The notes beneath the pieces were generated by a model. The model did no database searches and was not told where the DNA came from. It was given only the letters and a program-made list of their open reading frames with translations. 64,000 nucleotides of DNA, taken from assembly GCF_003352915.1 (NCBI RefSeq), contig NZ_CP022314.1, forward strand, positions 577,947 through 641,946, in the 5' to 3' direction. How positions within the stretch are numbered: the first letter of the stretch is position 1; each line of letters opens with the position of its first letter. Source of the DNA: Arthrobacter sp. PM3 (GTDB lineage: Bacteria; Actinomycetota; Actinomycetes; Actinomycetales; Micrococcaceae). Made by a program: the position numbers and the translations under genes. This document shows, one piece after another, positions 2,305 to 10,119 of the stretch.

Positions 2305-2910
2305 ATGAAAGGCATTTACGACGACAAATTTTCCGGCGGCGGACCCGCCGACGGACGTTTCGGGCGTGGGCGGAGCCGGCGCGGACCCCACGGGCATGGC
2401 GGCTTCGGCCCGGGCCGCGGCTTCGGCCCAGGATTCGGGCCGGGCTTCGGCCCCGGATTCGGCCCCGGTGGTCCCCGCCGCGCCAGCAAGGGGGACGTCC
2501 GTGCGGCGATTCTCTCCCTCCTGGCCGAAGCACCCTCCAACGGCTACGGCCTGATCAAGACCATCGCGGAGAAGACCTCGGGCGCCTGGCGGCCCAGCCC
2601 GGGCTCCGTGTACCCGACGCTGCAGCAACTCGTCGACGAGGACCTGATCGCCCCCGAAGGCGACGGACGGCGCACCGAGTTCACGCTCACCGACGCCGGC
2701 CGGGAGTACGTCGCTGCCCACGCCGAGGAACTGGATAACGCCTGGAATACCGAGGGCCAAGGATCCGGTGCCGCGTTCCACCAGAGCGTGGCCAAGCTCA
2801 TGGGCGTCATTCACCAGTTCCGCTTCTCCGCGACTGAGGATCAGCGCGCCGCCGCGATCGAAAAGATGGACGAGACCCGCCGCGCTCTCTACCTCATCCT
2901 CGCTGACTAG
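2305..2910 (+). CDS. PadR-family transcriptional regulator
   Basis: 201-residue winged-helix regulator. Residues about 30-56 form a Gly/Phe/Pro-rich linker (GFGPGFGPGFGPG repeats) that precedes the DNA-binding domain. The PadR domain starts with KGDVRAAILSLLAEAPSNGYGLI and has the hallmark SPGSVYPTLQQLVDEDLI of recognition helix and wing. A C-terminal helical segment (residues about 150-201) would dimerise. The start is supported by GGAAGGAAG eight bases upstream. PadR proteins usually repress an efflux or stress gene, often their own operon; no partner gene is obvious on this strand, so the target is unknown. The low-complexity N-terminus is seen in several actinobacterial PadR proteins. Confidence 0.9.
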   Translation: MKGIYDDKFSGGGPADGRFGRGRSRRGPHGHGGFGPGRGFGPGFGPGFGPGFGPGGPRRASKGDVRAAILSLLAEAPSNGYGLIKTIAEKTSGAWRPSPGSVYPTLQQLVDEDLIAPEGDGRRTEFTLTDAGREYVAAHAEELDNAWNTEGQGSGAAFHQSVAKLMGVIHQFRFSATEDQRAAAIEKMDETRRALYLILAD

Positions 2911-2938
2911 CAGCACGGTGCGGACCTGGGATACCTCA

Positions 2939-2955
2939 CGTCACACAACGTGACG
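2939..2955 (+). terminator. Short hairpin after padR
   Basis: CGTCAC-ACAAC-GTGACG forms a 6-bp stem 29 bases after the padR stop. There is no T-run, so termination is only one reading. Confidence 0.3.
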
Positions 2956-2994
2956 GCAGCCTGATCCGAGCAGGCCACGTCCTACCCTTGACAG

Positions 2995-3552
2995 GTGACT
3001 TTGACCAAAATCCGCACCGCCGCCGCGAGCTCCCTCGCCGCCGCAGGTCTCCTGTTTACCCTCGCCGCCTGTTCCACGCCGGCCGCCACCCAGCCCACCA
3101 CCTCCGCACCGGCTTCCACGGCGGCAGCTTCAGCCAGCGCTGCCGCCGAGCCCTGCGCCGGCGTGAAGGTCATCACCGATTCGGCCTCCCTGAAGCAGGC
3201 CGCCGCTGATACGTCCGTATGCGTGCCCGTGGACGGGCCGACTCTCGCGTCCAAGGTCCTCGCGGACGCCAAGATCAAGACCGAGGGCACCGCCGCCTAC
3301 CCCACGGAACTGGTGTGCCGCGTGAACGGCGTACCCGCCGCAGACCTTGACATCGCCCACAAGGGCGGCACGTACCGGGAAGACTGCAGCAAGATGCCCG
3401 CCGCGTTCGCCTACTGGTCCCTGTGGGTCAAGCCGGCCGCCGGCGCCTGGGCCTACGCGCAGGAAGGCCTCGGCACCCTGAAGGTCAGCCCGGGCGAGAG
3501 CCTGGAACTGCTCTTCACGGTCGACGACGCCCCGTCCGCACCCGCAGCATGA
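2995..3552 (+). CDS. Lipoprotein coupled to ECF transporter, possible B12-binding
   Basis: 185-residue exported lipoprotein. The signal peptide ends in the lipobox LAAC with Cys26, followed by a Thr/Ala/Ser-rich linker and a small domain. Its C-terminal part (YWSLWVKPAAGAWAYAQEG, then a VSPGESLELLF end) resembles the fold ending of DUF4430/transcobalamin-like domains, where a W-x-Y and G-x-x-V-x-x-G pattern closes the sheet; this is pattern recognition, not a search result. Two Cys pairs could form disulfides. The stop overlaps the next ATG (ATGA), so it is translationally coupled to the single-chain ECF transporter. The GTG start at 2995 lacks a clear ribosome site and TTGACA lies immediately upstream, so the true start is uncertain. 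Role inferred: extracytoplasmic substrate capture for the ECF importer. Confidence 0.75.
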   Translation: MTLTKIRTAAASSLAAAGLLFTLAACSTPAATQPTTSAPASTAAASASAAAEPCAGVKVITDSASLKQAAADTSVCVPVDGPTLASKVLADAKIKTEGTAAYPTELVCRVNGVPAADLDIAHKGGTYREDCSKMPAAFAYWSLWVKPAAGAWAYAQEGLGTLKVSPGESLELLFTVDDAPSAPAA

Positions 3553-6479
3553 CCTTTCGACCCGCGCCGTTACGTGCAGGGGCGGCTCTCGCCGCCGTCT
3601 TCATCGCGGCGCGGGTCGTCTACCGAATCCTCTTCAACGGGGCGGGCACCGGGGAACCGGTTCTGCTGAACCTGCCGCCGGTGCCGCTGCCTCCCCCGTT
3701 CGCCCATGTGGTCCTCCTCGGTCCGGTCACGGCGCCCGGCCTCTGGGCTGCCGTCCTGTCCGCCGTGCCGATCGCCGCGATGATCCTCGGCTTCGGCCTG
3801 CTCAACGCCTGCGTCGACGTGGCCCGCGGCTTCCGGCACCTGGCCCGCGGCGGCCCCCTGCAGGGCACCGCCCGGACGCTCGTGGTGGCGTGGGCGGCGC
3901 TTCCGGCGCTCTCCGACGCCGTCTCCTCCGTACGCCTGGCGTTCCGGCTGCGGGGCGAACGCTTCGGAGCCCGAGCGCTGGTCCCCGTGCTCGAGCGCAC
4001 CCTCGAACATGCCGGCCGCGTGGCCGCGGCCCTGGAATTGCGCGGCTTCGGCAGCCGCGCAGCCCACCAGCCCGCGGCCGACGCCGATGCACCGGTTCTC
4101 GTCCGGGACGCCCAGTTCCGCATTGGTGACGCACGGGTGCGCGTCACCGGATTCACGCCCCCGGGCGGCTCAATCACGGTCATCACGGGGCCGACCGGCT
4201 CCGGCAAGTCCACGATCCTGCGCGGCATCGCGGGGCTGCTCTCCCATGTGGACGGCGGGGACATCTCCGGCACGGTGCGCGTCGCCGGGACGGACCGTGC
4301 CGCCACGCCGCCGCGCGATACCGCGCGCCGGATCGGCGTCGTCCTGCAGAACCCCCGCACCGCCTTCGCCGCCACCCGGGTCCGGGACGAAATCGCTCTC
4401 GCACTCGAGCTGCGCGGCGTGGCGGCCGGCCCCGCCAAGATCCGGGCGCTGGACGCCGCGGAAAGAATCGGCGTGACAGCCCTGCTGGACCGGAACCTCA
4501 GCACCCTCTCGGCCGGTGAGGCAACGCTCGTGGCCATCGCCGCCGCCGTCGTGGACCACCCGGCCCTGCTCCTGGTTGACGAACCCCTCGCCGACCTCGA
4601 CACCGCGGCCCGCGGACGCGTCATCGCAGTGCTCCACGCCCTCGCCCGCGACGAGGGTGTCTGCGTCATCGTGGCGGAGCACCGGGCGGAAGCGCTCGTC
4701 CCCGTCGCCGACGCCTGGTGGACCCTCGACGGCGGCGCCCTGGTGCCGGGCATCGCGCCGACCCCACCGGCCGCTTCAGCCCCGGCTGCTGCCCACCCGA
4801 TGCCCGTTCCGGACACGGAGCACGCGCCCGTGCTGACCGCGACAAGCCTCGCGGTACACCGTGCGGGCAAGCCGCTGGTGCGTGAGGCTTCGCTGACCCT
4901 GCACCGCGGTGAAGTGGTCGCCCTGGTGGGGCCGAACGGGGCCGGGAAGTCGTCCCTCCTGGTGGCGCTTGCCTTGGGACAGGGCACACCAGGTGACAGC
5001 GCGGCCGAGACAAAGACGCTCGACGGCGGCCGCGTCGCCCTCGTCCCGGATGCCTCCGACGACCTTTTCACGAGGGACACGGTCGCGGCAGAGCTTCGAG
5101 CGGCCGAACGACGCCGGGACCGCACATCCCATCGTTCAAGCTGGCGTCGTTCAAACCGGCACCGCCCGGGGACTGAGCATGTCCCGCCCATGTCCGCGGA
5201 AGCGCGCCTTGGACGCCTTCGGGGCGACGTCCGGATGCCGATCGGCCACGAGCACCCGCGGGACCTCTCCGCCGGGGAGCGCAGAATCCTGGCGATTGCG
5301 CTGCAGACCATGGACGATCCCCAGGTTCTCCTGATCGACGAGCCGACCCGCGGGCTCGATGCCGAGGCACGCACGGCGGTCGCGGCGGCGCTGCGGGCCG
5401 CGGCGGAAGACGGCGCGGCGGTCCTGATCGCCACCCACGACCTCGATTTTGCCCGCGGCCTCGGCGCCCGGATCCTCCCGATGTGCGACGGCGTCGCCCC
5501 CTCGTCTGTGGCCGAAACTGTCACAGCCGGGGCCAGCACAGCGCGAAGCACCACAACGCAACCTGTCGCCGCACGCAGCGTCACGACACTGCCCGTTGCG
5601 GGGCCGCGGCTCCCCGGCCGGCAGCCGGAGAATCCCGGCGCGGCAGTGAAAGCCCCCCGCATCCGGCTGCCCCGGGGCGTGGAGTTCGCAGTGCTCGCTG
5701 CCGCGAACCTGGTGGCCCTGGCCGCGTTCTGCTGGCCGCTGCTCGCAGCAGCCCTCCCGGGGGACGCCGCCGCGGCCCTCCCCTACGCGGCCATGGCCAT
5801 CGCGCCGGTTGCCGCGGTCGCCGTCGTGGTTTCCCTGGACGGCTCGGTCCGCTCCGCGCACACGGTGGCGCTGCTCGGCGTGCTGGCCGCCATCGGCTCG
5901 GCCGTGCGGGTGGCCAGCACCGGCGTCGGCGGTGTGGAGGCGGTCTTTATCCTGCTGATCCTGGCCGGCCGCGCCTTCGGTGCCCGTTTCGGCCTGCTCC
6001 TCGGCGCGGCCACCATCGCCGTGTCGAGCGTCGTGTGGGGCGGCATTGGGCCCTGGACGCCGTTCCAGATCTTCGCCTGCGCGTGGGTGGGCGCCGGGGC
6101 GGGCCTGCTCCCCCGCCGGGTGCGCGGCAAAGCCGAGCTATGGATGCTGTGCGGCTACGGGGCGCTGGCGTCCTACGCGTTCGGCCTGCTGACCAACCTG
6201 TGGTTCTGGCCGTTCGCGGTCGGCGCCGGCACCGGCATCTCCTACGTGCCCGGCGCGCCCCTGTCCACCAACCTCAGCAGCTTCCTGCTCTACTCGCTCC
6301 TGACCTCGACCGCCGGATGGGACACGCTCCGTGCCATCACGACGATCGTCGGCATCACCCTGGTGGGGCGGGCCATTCTCGCCGCCCTCCGGCGGGTGAA
6401 GCCGGTCACCAGCCAGGGAGGGCAGGTCGCCCAGGCCCAACCCAGCCAGGACAGGGACCGGCTTCAACTCACACCTTGA
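3549..6479 (+). CDS. Single-chain ECF transporter (EcfT-EcfA-EcfA'-EcfS fusion)
   Basis: 976-residue fusion holding what look like all four parts of an energy-coupling-factor vitamin importer. Residues 1 to about 175 are a short EcfT-like membrane module with helices and the LRGERFGARA / LELRGFGSR motifs of coupling helices. The first ATPase has Walker A GPTGSGKST (214-222), a Q-loop (VVLQNP), signature LSAGE (320-324), Walker B LLLVDEP and switch His (VAEH). The second has Walker A GPNGAGKSS (461-469), LSAGE (573-577) and LLIDEPTRGLD, but its Q-loop position reads VPDASDD without Gln and an Arg/His/Ser-rich insert precedes its signature. Residues about 712-955 are six-helix membrane sequence like a QueT/CbrT-class S component. 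Start chosen at the ATG overlapping the lipoprotein stop. Convergent with metH, so cobalamin is the favoured but unproven substrate. Confidence 0.85.
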   Translation: MTFRPAPLRAGAALAAVFIAARVVYRILFNGAGTGEPVLLNLPPVPLPPPFAHVVLLGPVTAPGLWAAVLSAVPIAAMILGFGLLNACVDVARGFRHLARGGPLQGTARTLVVAWAALPALSDAVSSVRLAFRLRGERFGARALVPVLERTLEHAGRVAAALELRGFGSRAAHQPAADADAPVLVRDAQFRIGDARVRVTGFTPPGGSITVITGPTGSGKSTILRGIAGLLSHVDGGDISGTVRVAGTDRAATPPRDTARRIGVVLQNPRTAFAATRVRDEIALALELRGVAAGPAKIRALDAAERIGVTALLDRNLSTLSAGEATLVAIAAAVVDHPALLLVDEPLADLDTAARGRVIAVLHALARDEGVCVIVAEHRAEALVPVADAWWTLDGGALVPGIAPTPPAASAPAAAHPMPVPDTEHAPVLTATSLAVHRAGKPLVREASLTLHRGEVVALVGPNGAGKSSLLVALALGQGTPGDSAAETKTLDGGRVALVPDASDDLFTRDTVAAELRAAERRRDRTSHRSSWRRSNRHRPGTEHVPPMSAEARLGRLRGDVRMPIGHEHPRDLSAGERRILAIALQTMDDPQVLLIDEPTRGLDAEARTAVAAALRAAAEDGAAVLIATHDLDFARGLGARILPMCDGVAPSSVAETVTAGASTARSTTTQPVAARSVTTLPVAGPRLPGRQPENPGAAVKAPRIRLPRGVEFAVLAAANLVALAAFCWPLLAAALPGDAAAALPYAAMAIAPVAAVAVVVSLDGSVRSAHTVALLGVLAAIGSAVRVASTGVGGVEAVFILLILAGRAFGARFGLLLGAATIAVSSVVWGGIGPWTPFQIFACAWVGAGAGLLPRRVRGKAELWMLCGYGALASYAFGLLTNLWFWPFAVGAGTGISYVPGAPLSTNLSSFLLYSLLTSTAGWDTLRAITTIVGITLVGRAILAALRRVKPVTSQGGQVAQAQPSQDRDRLQLTP

Positions 6480-9400
6480 AGTACTTCGCCTCCGGGTGGT
6501 GGAACACGAACGCGTCGGTGGACTGCTCGGGGTGCAGCATCAGCTCATCACTCAGGACCACGCCCATCCGCTCCGGACGCAGCAGTTCCGTCACCTTGCG
6601 GCGGTCCTCCATGTCCGGGCACGCCGGGTAGCCGAGCGAGAACCGTGCGCCGCGGTAGTCCAACTTGAACAAGCCGGCCTTGTCCTTCGGCTCCTCGGCC
6701 GCGAACCCCAGCTCGGAACGGATGCGTGCGTGCCAGAACTCCGCCAGCGCCTCGGTCAGCTGCATGACCAAGCCGTTGAGCTCGTAGTAGTCCCGGTAGT
6801 GGTTCCCCTTGAACAGCTCGGCCGTCACCTCATCGATCTTGTTGCCGGCGGTGACCAGCTGCACCGGCAGGACGTCGATCTGCCCCGATTCGCGCGAGCG
6901 CACAAAGTCCGCGAGGCACAGGTGCCGGTCCCGGCGCTGGCGCGGGAAGTCGAAACGCAGCCGCTCGGTGCCGATCGGACCGTCTGATCCGCCGTCGGGG
7001 GCGAGCAGGCCCGGGGTGCCGAGGACGCCGTCGCGGTCCTCGCCGTGGTGCAGCACCACCACCTGTTCCCCTTCGGAGACCACCGGGAAGTAGCCGTACG
7101 CGACCGACGCGTCGAGCATGCCCTCGCCGAGGATGCGGTCCAGCCAGTACCGCAGGCGCGGCCGGCCCTCGCGTTCCACGAGCTCCTCGTAAGAGGCGCC
7201 GTCCTCGCCGCGGCCGGGCTTGAGCCCCCACTGCCCCATGAAGGTGGCGCGTTCGTCGAGGAACGTAGCGTAGTCGTGGAGCGCGACGCCGCGCACAATG
7301 CGCGTGCCCCAGTACGGCGGCGACGGCACGCGGTTGTCGGTGGCGACGTCGGAACGGCCGGGCATCGCCTCCGGCTCGGTGACCGTGAACTTCGGCCCTC
7401 CCTTATGGATCCGCTTCTTCAGCGGCGGAAGGCCGACGGCGTCGGGATCGGCGCCGCGGGCCACCTGCACCAGGGGTTCCATGAGTGTCAGGCCCTCAAA
7501 GGCGTCCTTGGCGTACCTGACGGTGCCTTCAAACTGCTCCGCAAGGTCCTGCTCCACGTAGGCGCGGGTCAGGGCTGCGCCGCCGAGGATGATTGGCCAC
7601 TTCTTCGCGAGCCCCCGGGACTGCAGTTCGGCGAGGTTCTCCTTCATCACCACCGTGGACTTCACGAGCAGGCCCGACATGCCGATCACGTCCGCGTCGT
7701 GCTCTTCGGCCGCGGCAATGATCTCGGCGATCCCCTGCTTGATGCCGATGTTGACCACTTTGTAGCCGTTGTTGGTGAGGATGATGTCCACCAGGTTCTT
7801 GCCGATATCGTGCACATCGCCGCGCACGGTGGCGATCACCATGGTGCCCTTGCCCGACGCATCCGACTTCTCCATGTGCGGCTCGAGCAAAGCCACCGCG
7901 TTCTTCATCACCTCGGCGGACTGCAGCACGAAGGGCAGCTGCATTTCGCCCGCGCCGAAGCGCTCACCCACAACTTTCATGCCTTCGAGCAGCTGGTCGT
8001 TGATGATGCCGAGCGGGGTCATGCCCTCGGCCCGCGCCAGGTCGAGGTCCTCTTCAAGGCCCTTGCCCTCGCCGTCGATGATGCGCCGCTGCAGGCGTTC
8101 GCCGGTGGGCAGCGCCGCGAGTTCCGCGGCGCGCTGGTCCTTCAGCGCTGCGGTGTCGACGCCGGCGAACAGGTCCAGCATGCTGGCCAGGGGATCGTAC
8201 GTGACGTTGCCGTCGGCGTCGTATTCGCGGCGGTCCCAGACGAGGTCCAGGGCCACCTTGCGCTGCTCCTCCGGCAGTGAGGCGAGCGGCACGATCTTGG
8301 CGGCGTCGATGATGCCGCTGGTCAGGCCCGCCTGCACGGCCTCGTGCAGGAACACCGAGTTCAGGACCATGCGCGCCGCCGGGTTCAGGCCGAAGGACAC
8401 GTTGGAGACGCCGAGGGTGGTCTGGATGCCGGGGTACTTCGTGGTGATCTGGCGGATGGCCTCGATCGTTTCGATGCCGTCCCGGCGGGTTTCTTCCTGG
8501 CCGGTGGCGATGGGGAACGTGAGGGCGTCAACGATGATGTCCTCGACGCACATCCCCCATTCGCCCACCAGGGCGTCGACGAGGCGCGAGGCGATGGCCA
8601 CCTTACCGTCGGTGGTGCGGGCCTGGCCGTGCTCGTCGATGGTCAGGGCGATCACGGCCGTGCCGTGTTCCTTCACGAGCGGCATGATGCGCGCGAAGCG
8701 GCTGTCCGGGCCGTCGCCGTCCTCGTAGTTGACGGAGTTGACCACCGGGCGTCCGCCGATGAGTTCGAGCCCGGCCCGCAGGACGGGCGGTTCGGTGGAG
8801 TCGATGACGAGCGGGAGCGTGGAGGCCGACGCGAAACGTGAGACGACCTCCTTGATGTCGGCCGCGCCGTCGCGCCCCACGTAGTCGATGCAGACGTCGA
8901 GCAGGTGTGCGCCGACGCGGACCTGCTCACGGGCGATATCGACGCAGTCGTCCCAGCGCTCTTCCAGCATCGCCTGGCGGAACGCCTTCGAACCGTTCGC
9001 GTTGGTGCGCTCGCCAATGGCGAGGTACGCGGACTCCTGGTCGAAATTCACGTGGTGGTAGAGGGACGCGATGCCTGCTTCACGCTCGGTGGGGAGGCGT
9101 TCGCCGTCGGCGCCCCTCCCGCCGCTGGTGACGGCCACGCTGTCGCGCAAGGGCGCAAGACGTTCGACGACGGCGGCCATGTGCTCCGGCGTCGTACCGC
9201 AACACCCGCCGACGAGCCCCAGGCCGAATTCCCGCACGAACTGCTCGTGCGCGGCGGCGAGTTCGGTGGGTGATAGCGGATAGTGCGCGCCGTTGGCGCC
9301 AAGGATCGGCAGGCCGGCGTTGGGCATGCAGGCGATCGCGACGGAGGACTGCTTGGACAGGTGGCGCAGGTGCTCGCTCATCTCGTCCGGGCCGGTGGCG

Positions 9401-10119
9401 CAGTTCAGGCCGATGGCGTCGACGCCGAGCGGCTCCAGCGCCGTGAGCGCGGCGCCGATCTCGGAGCCCATCAGCATAGTGCCCGTGGTTTCCACGGTCA
9501 CCTCGACGAAGATGGGGAGCCGGATGCCGCGGGCCACGATCGCCTGCTTGCAGCCGTTGACGGCGGCCTTGGTCTGCAGGAGGTCCTGGCTGGTCTCGAT
9601 GAGGAAGGCATCCGCTCCCCCGTCGATGAGGCCCTCGGCCTGCAGGGCGAAGGTCTGCTTGAGGTAGTCGTAGCTGGTGTGCCCGAGGCTGGGGAGCTTG
9701 GTGCCCGGTCCCATCGAGCCCAGGACCCACCGCATCCGTCCGTCGGTTTTCTCCGCCGCCTCGGCGCGCTCCCTGGCGATCTCCGCGCCCTTGCGGGCGA
9801 GCTCCTCAATCCGGCTGTCGATGCCGTAGTCGGAGAGGTTGGACCAGTTCGCGCCGAAGGTGTTGGTTTCGACCGCGTCGATGCCCGTGGCGAAGTAGGC
9901 ATCGTGGATGTCCCCGATGACGTCCGGGCGGGTGTCGTTGAGGATCTCGTTGCAGCCCTCCAGGTTCTGGAAGTCGGCCTCGAGCGAGAGTTCCCGGCCC
10001 TGCAGCATGGTGCCCATCGCCCCGTCGGCAATGACCACCCGGTGGTTCACCGCATCCAGGAGCGCCTGGGCGCGTGCAGGACGGGGGACGGATTCGATGT
10101 CGAGCGCATAACGAGGCAT
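6469..10119 (-). CDS. metH: Cobalamin-dependent methionine synthase
   Basis: 1216-residue enzyme that moves a methyl group from 5-methyltetrahydrofolate to homocysteine through B12. All modules are present in order: the homocysteine domain (residues about 25-330) with the zinc ligands of GGCCGTTP near 305 and an upstream Cys in GLNCATG; the pterin-binding domain (ERTNANGSKAF onward, about 365-630); the cobalamin cap and Rossmann domain with DVHDIGKN near 765-772, whose His is the lower axial ligand; and the C-terminal SAM-binding activation domain. Length matches the family. The 3' end overlaps the convergent ECF gene by 11 bases. No cobalamin riboswitch was recognised upstream (10120-10406). 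Confidence 0.97.
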   Translation of the reverse strand: MPRYALDIESVPRPARAQALLDAVNHRVVIADGAMGTMLQGRELSLEADFQNLEGCNEILNDTRPDVIGDIHDAYFATGIDAVETNTFGANWSNLSDYGIDSRIEELARKGAEIARERAEAAEKTDGRMRWVLGSMGPGTKLPSLGHTSYDYLKQTFALQAEGLIDGGADAFLIETSQDLLQTKAAVNGCKQAIVARGIRLPIFVEVTVETTGTMLMGSEIGAALTALEPLGVDAIGLNCATGPDEMSEHLRHLSKQSSVAIACMPNAGLPILGANGAHYPLSPTELAAAHEQFVREFGLGLVGGCCGTTPEHMAAVVERLAPLRDSVAVTSGGRGADGERLPTEREAGIASLYHHVNFDQESAYLAIGERTNANGSKAFRQAMLEERWDDCVDIAREQVRVGAHLLDVCIDYVGRDGAADIKEVVSRFASASTLPLVIDSTEPPVLRAGLELIGGRPVVNSVNYEDGDGPDSRFARIMPLVKEHGTAVIALTIDEHGQARTTDGKVAIASRLVDALVGEWGMCVEDIIVDALTFPIATGQEETRRDGIETIEAIRQITTKYPGIQTTLGVSNVSFGLNPAARMVLNSVFLHEAVQAGLTSGIIDAAKIVPLASLPEEQRKVALDLVWDRREYDADGNVTYDPLASMLDLFAGVDTAALKDQRAAELAALPTGERLQRRIIDGEGKGLEEDLDLARAEGMTPLGIINDQLLEGMKVVGERFGAGEMQLPFVLQSAEVMKNAVALLEPHMEKSDASGKGTMVIATVRGDVHDIGKNLVDIILTNNGYKVVNIGIKQGIAEIIAAAEEHDADVIGMSGLLVKSTVVMKENLAELQSRGLAKKWPIILGGAALTRAYVEQDLAEQFEGTVRYAKDAFEGLTLMEPLVQVARGADPDAVGLPPLKKRIHKGGPKFTVTEPEAMPGRSDVATDNRVPSPPYWGTRIVRGVALHDYATFLDERATFMGQWGLKPGRGEDGASYEELVEREGRPRLRYWLDRILGEGMLDASVAYGYFPVVSEGEQVVVLHHGEDRDGVLGTPGLLAPDGGSDGPIGTERLRFDFPRQRRDRHLCLADFVRSRESGQIDVLPVQLVTAGNKIDEVTAELFKGNHYRDYYELNGLVMQLTEALAEFWHARIRSELGFAAEEPKDKAGLFKLDYRGARFSLGYPACPDMEDRRKVTELLRPERMGVVLSDELMLHPEQSTDAFVFHHPEAKYFKV

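Follow-up and report, generated by a model that had tools for sequence, protein, structure and literature searches.

Within a 64,000-nucleotide window of the Arthrobacter sp. PM3 genome (contig NZ_CP022314.1, forward-strand positions 577,947 to 641,946; "the window" denotes this whole stretch, numbered from its first letter), a single open frame encodes all four modules of an energy-coupling factor (ECF) transporter, in the order T-A-A'-S; ordinarily these modules occur as distinct proteins. We assign the chain, with a probability of roughly 0.76, to a group-I-like ECF (type III ATP-binding cassette, ABC) importer with fused modules and with cobalamin (vitamin B12 or a close corrinoid) as its substrate. 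The cobalamin assignment rests on four lines of evidence that agree: the fold of a partner lipoprotein, the profile match of the S module, the association with the methionine synthase gene metH, and the distribution of the corrin-ring gene cobJ. The genes concerned are:

2995..3552, + strand: lipoprotein gene, 185 residues, first of a two-gene unit; LAAC lipobox with Cys26; its stop overlaps the ATG of the ECF gene (ATGA)
3549..6479, + strand: single-chain T-A-A'-S ECF transporter gene; one open frame of 976 residues, ATG at 3549, stop ending at 6479
6469..10119, - strand: metH, B12-dependent methionine synthase, 1216 residues; convergent, with an 11-base overlap with the ECF gene

A conserved four-module chain

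An earlier note on this DNA had read the frame at 3549 to 6479 as four ECF modules in one polypeptide, and this reading held: Pfam placed ABC_tran in two stretches of the 976-residue chain, and relatives keep the same arrangement. An alternative GTG start at 3423 would give a longer version of the chain, running over the upstream lipoprotein gene. A protein database search with the chain returned 730 proteins at E ≤ 1e-60; among the 120 matches listed, the first being the query, identity was 76–100% and coverage 97–100% of the query. The chain was encoded in 61 (L005–L065) of 75 loci taken from named genomes, and in 59 of the 61 it forms a single open frame of at least 935 residues (in L061 the S part was confirmed separately in the same frame). 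Two loci depart from this: L051, where the chain is split after T, and L057 (Arthrobacter sp. Hiyo4), where it is broken into several frames, through either sequencing errors or decay. Since homologues and loci keep the chain in one frame, the fusion is real and conserved and is no sequencing error. The frameshift or stop between modules that the earlier note had named as grounds for refutation was thus not borne out, and what had looked like a one-off oddity is a conserved family. The whole chain occurred in 5 of 61 sampled genomes of the bacterial family, spread over two genera, and Microbacteriaceae carry the same chain.

Profile searches of the separate segments, which the note had proposed, gave two ABC_tran matches. 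The first 175 residues scored 23.8 bits against PF02361 (CbiQ/EcfT; profile positions 83–210 of 216), just under the 25-bit cut-off, and the S module had no Pfam match of its own. The limits of three segments were revised, from residues 190–440, 440–650 and 710–955 to about 183–400 (first ATPase), 429–650 (second ATPase) and 705–953 (S). An AlphaFold2 model of the chain was built from 82 aligned sequences (mean predicted local distance difference test score, pLDDT, 78; predicted template modelling score, pTM, 0.76). A Foldseek search with the whole chain gave, among the 50 matches listed, only ABC-type ATPases, and is therefore uninformative on T or S. Fusions of A and A' are already known, according to passages of PMC6828968; in the titles, abstract openings, listed matches and passages covered by our literature search, no T-A-A'-S chain was described, the main survey (Rodionov 2009) lying outside that search's reach.

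A shortened T module and a tethered S module

3549..4073, + strand: shortened EcfT module; predicted helices at residues 6-28 and 62-88, coupling helices at 105-135 and 141-164 (model)
5514..5660, + strand: low-complexity linker from A' to S, residues 656-704, pLDDT mostly under 50
5661..6407, + strand: S module, residues 705-953; two extra N-terminal helices (709-766) and the S core (770-949)

The T module carries the two (L)RG motifs of ECF coupling helices, R135-G136 and R165-G166, in which Leu replaces the Ala of the Ala-Arg-Gly type; both are invariant in a 7-sequence alignment. When its profile was searched against the PDB, EcfT chains were retrieved at E 5.4e-8, over EcfT residues 101–232 of 266, and nothing but EcfT chains was found below E 0.01. 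Against the full T proteins found at related loci, the module aligns in their central part only, and it lacks about 54 N-terminal and about 130 C-terminal residues, which in the full-T relatives resemble several membrane helices. A complete EcfT membrane domain has four to eight helices, as stated in passages of PMC7761784; the model predicts only two long membrane helices in this T, and the chain is classed as a derived ECF variant by homology. The EcfT-like membrane module of the earlier note therefore stands as kin of EcfT, while the Pfam match, the profile and the full-T alignment all describe a shortened form of it.

The S core comprises six helices in the model (770–949) and contains an AXXXA motif at A781 and A785, each at least 90% conserved; passages of PMC11109136 describe this motif, in helix 1, as the one for docking on EcfT. 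PF12822 (ECF_trnsprt) was matched by 16 of the 19 sequences aligned with the S module. In a search of the S profile against 177635 distinct PDB sequences, the best match was the ECF-CbrT S-component, 6fnp_A (19.7 bits, E 0.0036); the sole other row was unrelated (E 5.8), leaving CbrT alone below E 1. S is dedicated because it shares one chain with the other three ECF modules, and it is not exchangeable because a linker of about 50 residues tethers it; the free, replaceable S of group II ECF transporters is absent here, just as the earlier note had argued.

The partner lipoprotein resembles a transcobalamin domain

3154..3528, + strand: lipoprotein domain resembling the transcobalamin beta domain (SLBB/DUF4430-type, beta-grasp), residues 54-178

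The lipoprotein gene adjoins the chain gene in 61/61 loci, and its stop overlaps the chain start in 57 of them; the lipobox Cys26 is invariant in 46/46 aligned sequences. The matches of its predicted fold were intrinsic factor, haptocorrin and transcobalamin, the B12 carrier of humans, and Pfam PF14478 was not matched. According to passages of PMC1796856, surface SLBB proteins of a transcobalamin clade share predicted operons with CbiO and CbiQ, and the bacteria concerned usually lack key enzymes of B12 synthesis. The earlier note had missed this partner lipoprotein, as well as the association with metH and cobalamin as the likely substrate.

Association with metH and with B12 genes

The product of the convergent metH gene has the Pfam domains S-methyl_trans, Pterin_bind, B12-binding, B12-binding_2 and Met_synt_B12, and thus both the B12-binding and activation domains. 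A metH gene was found near the chain gene in 39/61 loci and was convergent in all 39; the aligned ends overlap by four bases in 14, the only loci for which distances were used, as distances are unreliable where another ABC gene lies downstream. Across 149 genomes of the order, the S family was present in 43 and MetH in 61: both in 41, MetH alone in 20, S alone in two (G110, G123) and neither in 86. MetH therefore accompanies S in 41/43 S-positive genomes, compared with 20/106 S-negative ones (Fisher 4e-19, uncorrected for kinship). No cobJ match exceeded the cut-off in the 11 genomes with a shortened T; weak matches far below the cut-off are widespread, that of the window's genome scoring 48.5 of 246 bits.

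ATPase domains and an acidic Q-loop in A'

Conservation in the ATPases was taken from 125 aligned sequences (the window, 119 database proteins and five Microbacterium loci; L040, L045 and L056 were not caught by the start-motif filter). Since most of these are close relatives, invariance is easier to reach.

4095..4748, + strand: ATPase domain A; Walker A K220, Q-loop Q267, LSAGE 320-324, Walker B E345 and H378, each in 125/125
4833..5498, + strand: ATPase domain A'; Walker A K467, LSAGE 573-577, Walker B E598 and H630
5049..5051, + strand: Asp501, replacing the Q-loop Gln of A'; Asp in 125/125
5109..5198, + strand: Arg/Ser-rich, length-variable stretch before the second signature, residues about 521-550

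Both ABC domains carry Walker A, the Walker B Glu, the signature and the H-loop; in A', K467, E598 and H630 are each found in 125/125 sequences and the signature residues A575 and G576 in 120/125 and 124/125. The Q-loop Gln of A' is lost, as the earlier note had observed, with Asp501 in its place, and all other catalytic residues checked are intact. The second site therefore departs from the norm, yet, as it keeps these motifs, "degenerate", the term suggested for it, is not supported. The Arg/Ser-rich insert likewise exists but does not in itself indicate degeneracy, being part of a spacer of 32–101 residues (median 48) between fixed motifs, measurable in 122/125 sequences. A frameshift was considered as the source of this stretch and rejected, since homologous stretches of variable length occur in the same frame in the nearest relatives.

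In wider relatives with a shortened T, the A' Q-loop position is Asp or Glu in 5/5 loci with a separate S gene and in 14/14 with the full chain (grades ii and iii below). Among 30 loci with separate genes (grade i) it is Gln in 24, Asp in L119 and Ser in L122, and the pattern caught nothing in L100, L113, L123 and L125; inspected by eye, L113 has Ala. Loss of the Gln is thus not confined to the shortened-T clade, since L119 and L122 lack it despite having separate genes, and the acidic residue was rejected as a strict marker of that clade on account of L119. Judged from the sequences, the acidic Q-loop hints at a difference between the two ATP sites.

Weighing the substrate assignment

Several observations weigh against a cobalamin importer of this kind. 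The match of S to CbrT is weak (E 0.0036), and the lipoprotein gave no Foldseek match at E ≤ 0.001, with template modelling (TM) scores of only 0.32–0.42 by query length; it also lacks the alpha/alpha toroid that contributes greatly to the B12 site of transcobalamin. T is without some of the helices of a full EcfT, which raises the question of how it holds S. No strong metH match was found in 22/61 loci within flanks of 6 kb (2.5 kb for L010), L034, L047 and L060 showing only short fragments. The S family is not confined to organisms that do not make B12, because cobJ exceeds the cut-off in 5/32 other S-positive genomes (G122 falls just under it). The genome also encodes MetE, so B12 is not obligatory for methionine. 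Finally, the window gave no Rfam match at the gathering score, and no cobalamin riboswitch was found in the genome among the 150 of 408 first-look candidates that were scored; riboswitch control of the ECF unit was accordingly rejected. A simple consensus scan of positions 2850–6600 found no promoter-like site.

Other explanations account for part of these data. Import of a cobalamin precursor or another corrinoid (cobinamide, other cobamides) in place of cobalamin itself would fit the transcobalamin-like fold and the metH link equally well, and CbrT also takes cobinamide according to passages of PMC5997447; we consider this unlikely, as MetH requires a complete cobamide. Rather less probable is import of another micronutrient, such as a thiamin precursor, beside a metH that is there by chance. 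One source does name a homologue (P0053) after YkoD, and ATPase domains alone are uninformative on substrate, but the transcobalamin-like partner, CbrT as best S match and the co-occurrence with MetH all speak against it.

That the chain is a CbiMNQO-type importer of cobalt or nickel is very improbable. The T module does match PF02361, a family named for cobalt transport, but the PDB search with the S profile pointed to CbrT and brought up no CbiM chain at E values up to 10, and a transcobalamin-like binder would presumably be unneeded for cobalt; the genome also has no cobJ over the cut-off through which cobalt could enter corrin synthesis. The idea that the fusion is decayed, or is an artefact of assembly or of a frameshift, has practically no chance of being correct and is already refuted by the homologues: against the broken frames of L051 and L057 stand the 59 intact loci, motifs fixed in 125/125 sequences and the same chain in Microbacteriaceae, and the PM3 genome itself is one 4.35 Mb contig.

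Three grades of fusion

Gene architectures were read at 54 loci, and a tree of S was built from 50 rows, with the window added and without L115, L120, L124, L128 and L129 (partial contigs or weak matches). Three grades of fusion are seen directly. The 30 rows of grade i have separate genes for T, AA' and S, with a full T (the separate T of L113 was read individually); toroid-like, SCO2322-like or lipoprotein-like matches lie upstream in 26/30, and metH is near in 1/30 (L113, 14 bases away) within the stretches examined, some of them short. Grade ii (5 rows: L093–L096, L112) has shortened T-A-A' in one frame and a separate S gene overlapping it by GTGA or ATGA; the lipoprotein is present and metH is adjacent in 5/5. 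Grade iii (15 rows) has the full T-A-A'-S chain.

A single branch (support 100/99) sets grades ii and iii together apart from the other rows. One full chain, L110, groups with the grade ii rows (support 99/95), so that the tree requires two events to explain the full fusion: either two separate fusions of S, or one fusion followed by a split. At L113 (G143) the ECF system is unfused, toroid-like and transcobalamin-like proteins accompany it, and metH is directly convergent with its separate S gene; on its long branch beside the shortened-T clade, L113 is either a separate instance or the older state.

In a sample of 296 genomes of the phylum, the S family was found in 74, including four fused ones (G000, G009, G080, G111). 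In 16 other phylum loci, most chosen for long open frames, none had the adjoining ATPase and S in one frame; only one ATPase match was resolved near S in L146 and L148, L143 is cut by a contig end, and this comparison covered only these 16 loci of the S-positive genomes. Within the order, open-frame length had suggested fused chains in G100, G115, G061 and G188, which proved not to be fused. L149, with S in another frame than the ATPase, has a metH match.

Flanking genes

2305-2910, + strand: gene of a PadR-type regulator whose long N-terminal stretch is rich in Gly, Arg, Phe and Pro; closely precedes the lipoprotein gene
672-1952, - strand: gene of an extracellular solute-binding protein (PF01547) belonging to a sugar-type ABC importer; no apparent relation to the ECF unit

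The PadR gene was rejected as a member of the system, being found in 0/65 loci (L005–L069) at E 1e-5.

Proposed mechanism

We infer a transport cycle from these features and from the general ECF model. The lipid-anchored, transcobalamin-beta-like protein would capture cobalamin outside the membrane and pass it to S. By analogy with the model in passages of PMC10368641 and PMC5997447, S would then topple against the coupling helices of the shortened T, releasing cobalamin inside, where it may serve the neighbouring MetH. The A-A' pair, which flexible linkers connect to T and S, would reset S by binding and hydrolysing ATP (PMC10368641), and S would not leave for another motor. The ATP-driven expulsion of S is described for group II, and group I may differ, as passages of PMC10368641 indicate.

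More tentatively, the chain could be a minimal one-polypeptide ECF importer, in which T is reduced to a two-helix anchor and the coupling helices, the extra N-terminal helices of S stand in for some of the EcfT scaffold, the acidic Q-loop specialises one ATP site and the transcobalamin-like lipoprotein delivers cobalamin. This possibility is doubtful as a whole; if true, it would describe an ECF importer that is helped by an external binding protein and turns over without releasing S. Whether S must leave the motor in each cycle is an open point for ECF transporters, according to passages of PMC10368641, and can be tested directly here, since S cannot leave this chain while close relatives have separate, homologous S proteins. 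The shortened T would also show how little of EcfT may suffice. For Arthrobacter and Microbacterium the locus constitutes a predicted route of B12 uptake, and gene families named so far only after Streptomyces loci would gain a predicted function.

Comparison with known systems

ECF-CbrT of Lactobacillus delbrueckii (PDB 6FNP; passages of PMC5997447) is likewise of ECF type, has an S core weakly related by profile and shares the predicted substrate cobalamin. It differs in consisting of four chains with a full EcfT and a motor predicted to be common to eight S-components, and those passages mention no transcobalamin-like partner.

Three Streptomycetaceae loci (L066–L068) have a homologous S (41–47% identity), AA' and T. 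There, in contrast to the chain, T, AA' and S are separate genes, T is full (355–391 residues from the anchor used) and the Q-loop Gln is kept; metH was not seen in the flanks examined. Upstream lie a toroid-like protein of the SCO2321 family (under the cut-off for the partial piece in L068) and a protein of the SCO2322 family. These two, the former squalene-cyclase-like by Pfam, share a unit with EcfT, AA' and S in L066–L068 and in many grade i loci. Together they may correspond to transcobalamin in bacteria, with the toroid and the YWSFW-type domain on two proteins, in a predicted Streptomycetaceae B12 uptake locus.

For mycobacteria, passages of two papers conflict, one listing Rv2325c/Rv2326c as an ECF system (PMC7761784) and the other stating that no ECF constituent is known (PMC12713380).

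The transcobalamin-like SLBB/DUF4430 clade, as described in passages of PMC1796856, resembles our lipoprotein in being secreted or surface-located, in having the C-terminal fold of transcobalamin and in sharing a unit with ECF genes, whereas the lipoprotein here is a lone beta domain without a toroid and without a PF14478 match. Finally, group I ECF transporters with a dedicated S (BioMNY and cobalt ECF systems; passages of PMC10368641) likewise devote their motor to one S, whereas in the Arthrobacter chain S is covalently part of the polypeptide and T is shortened.

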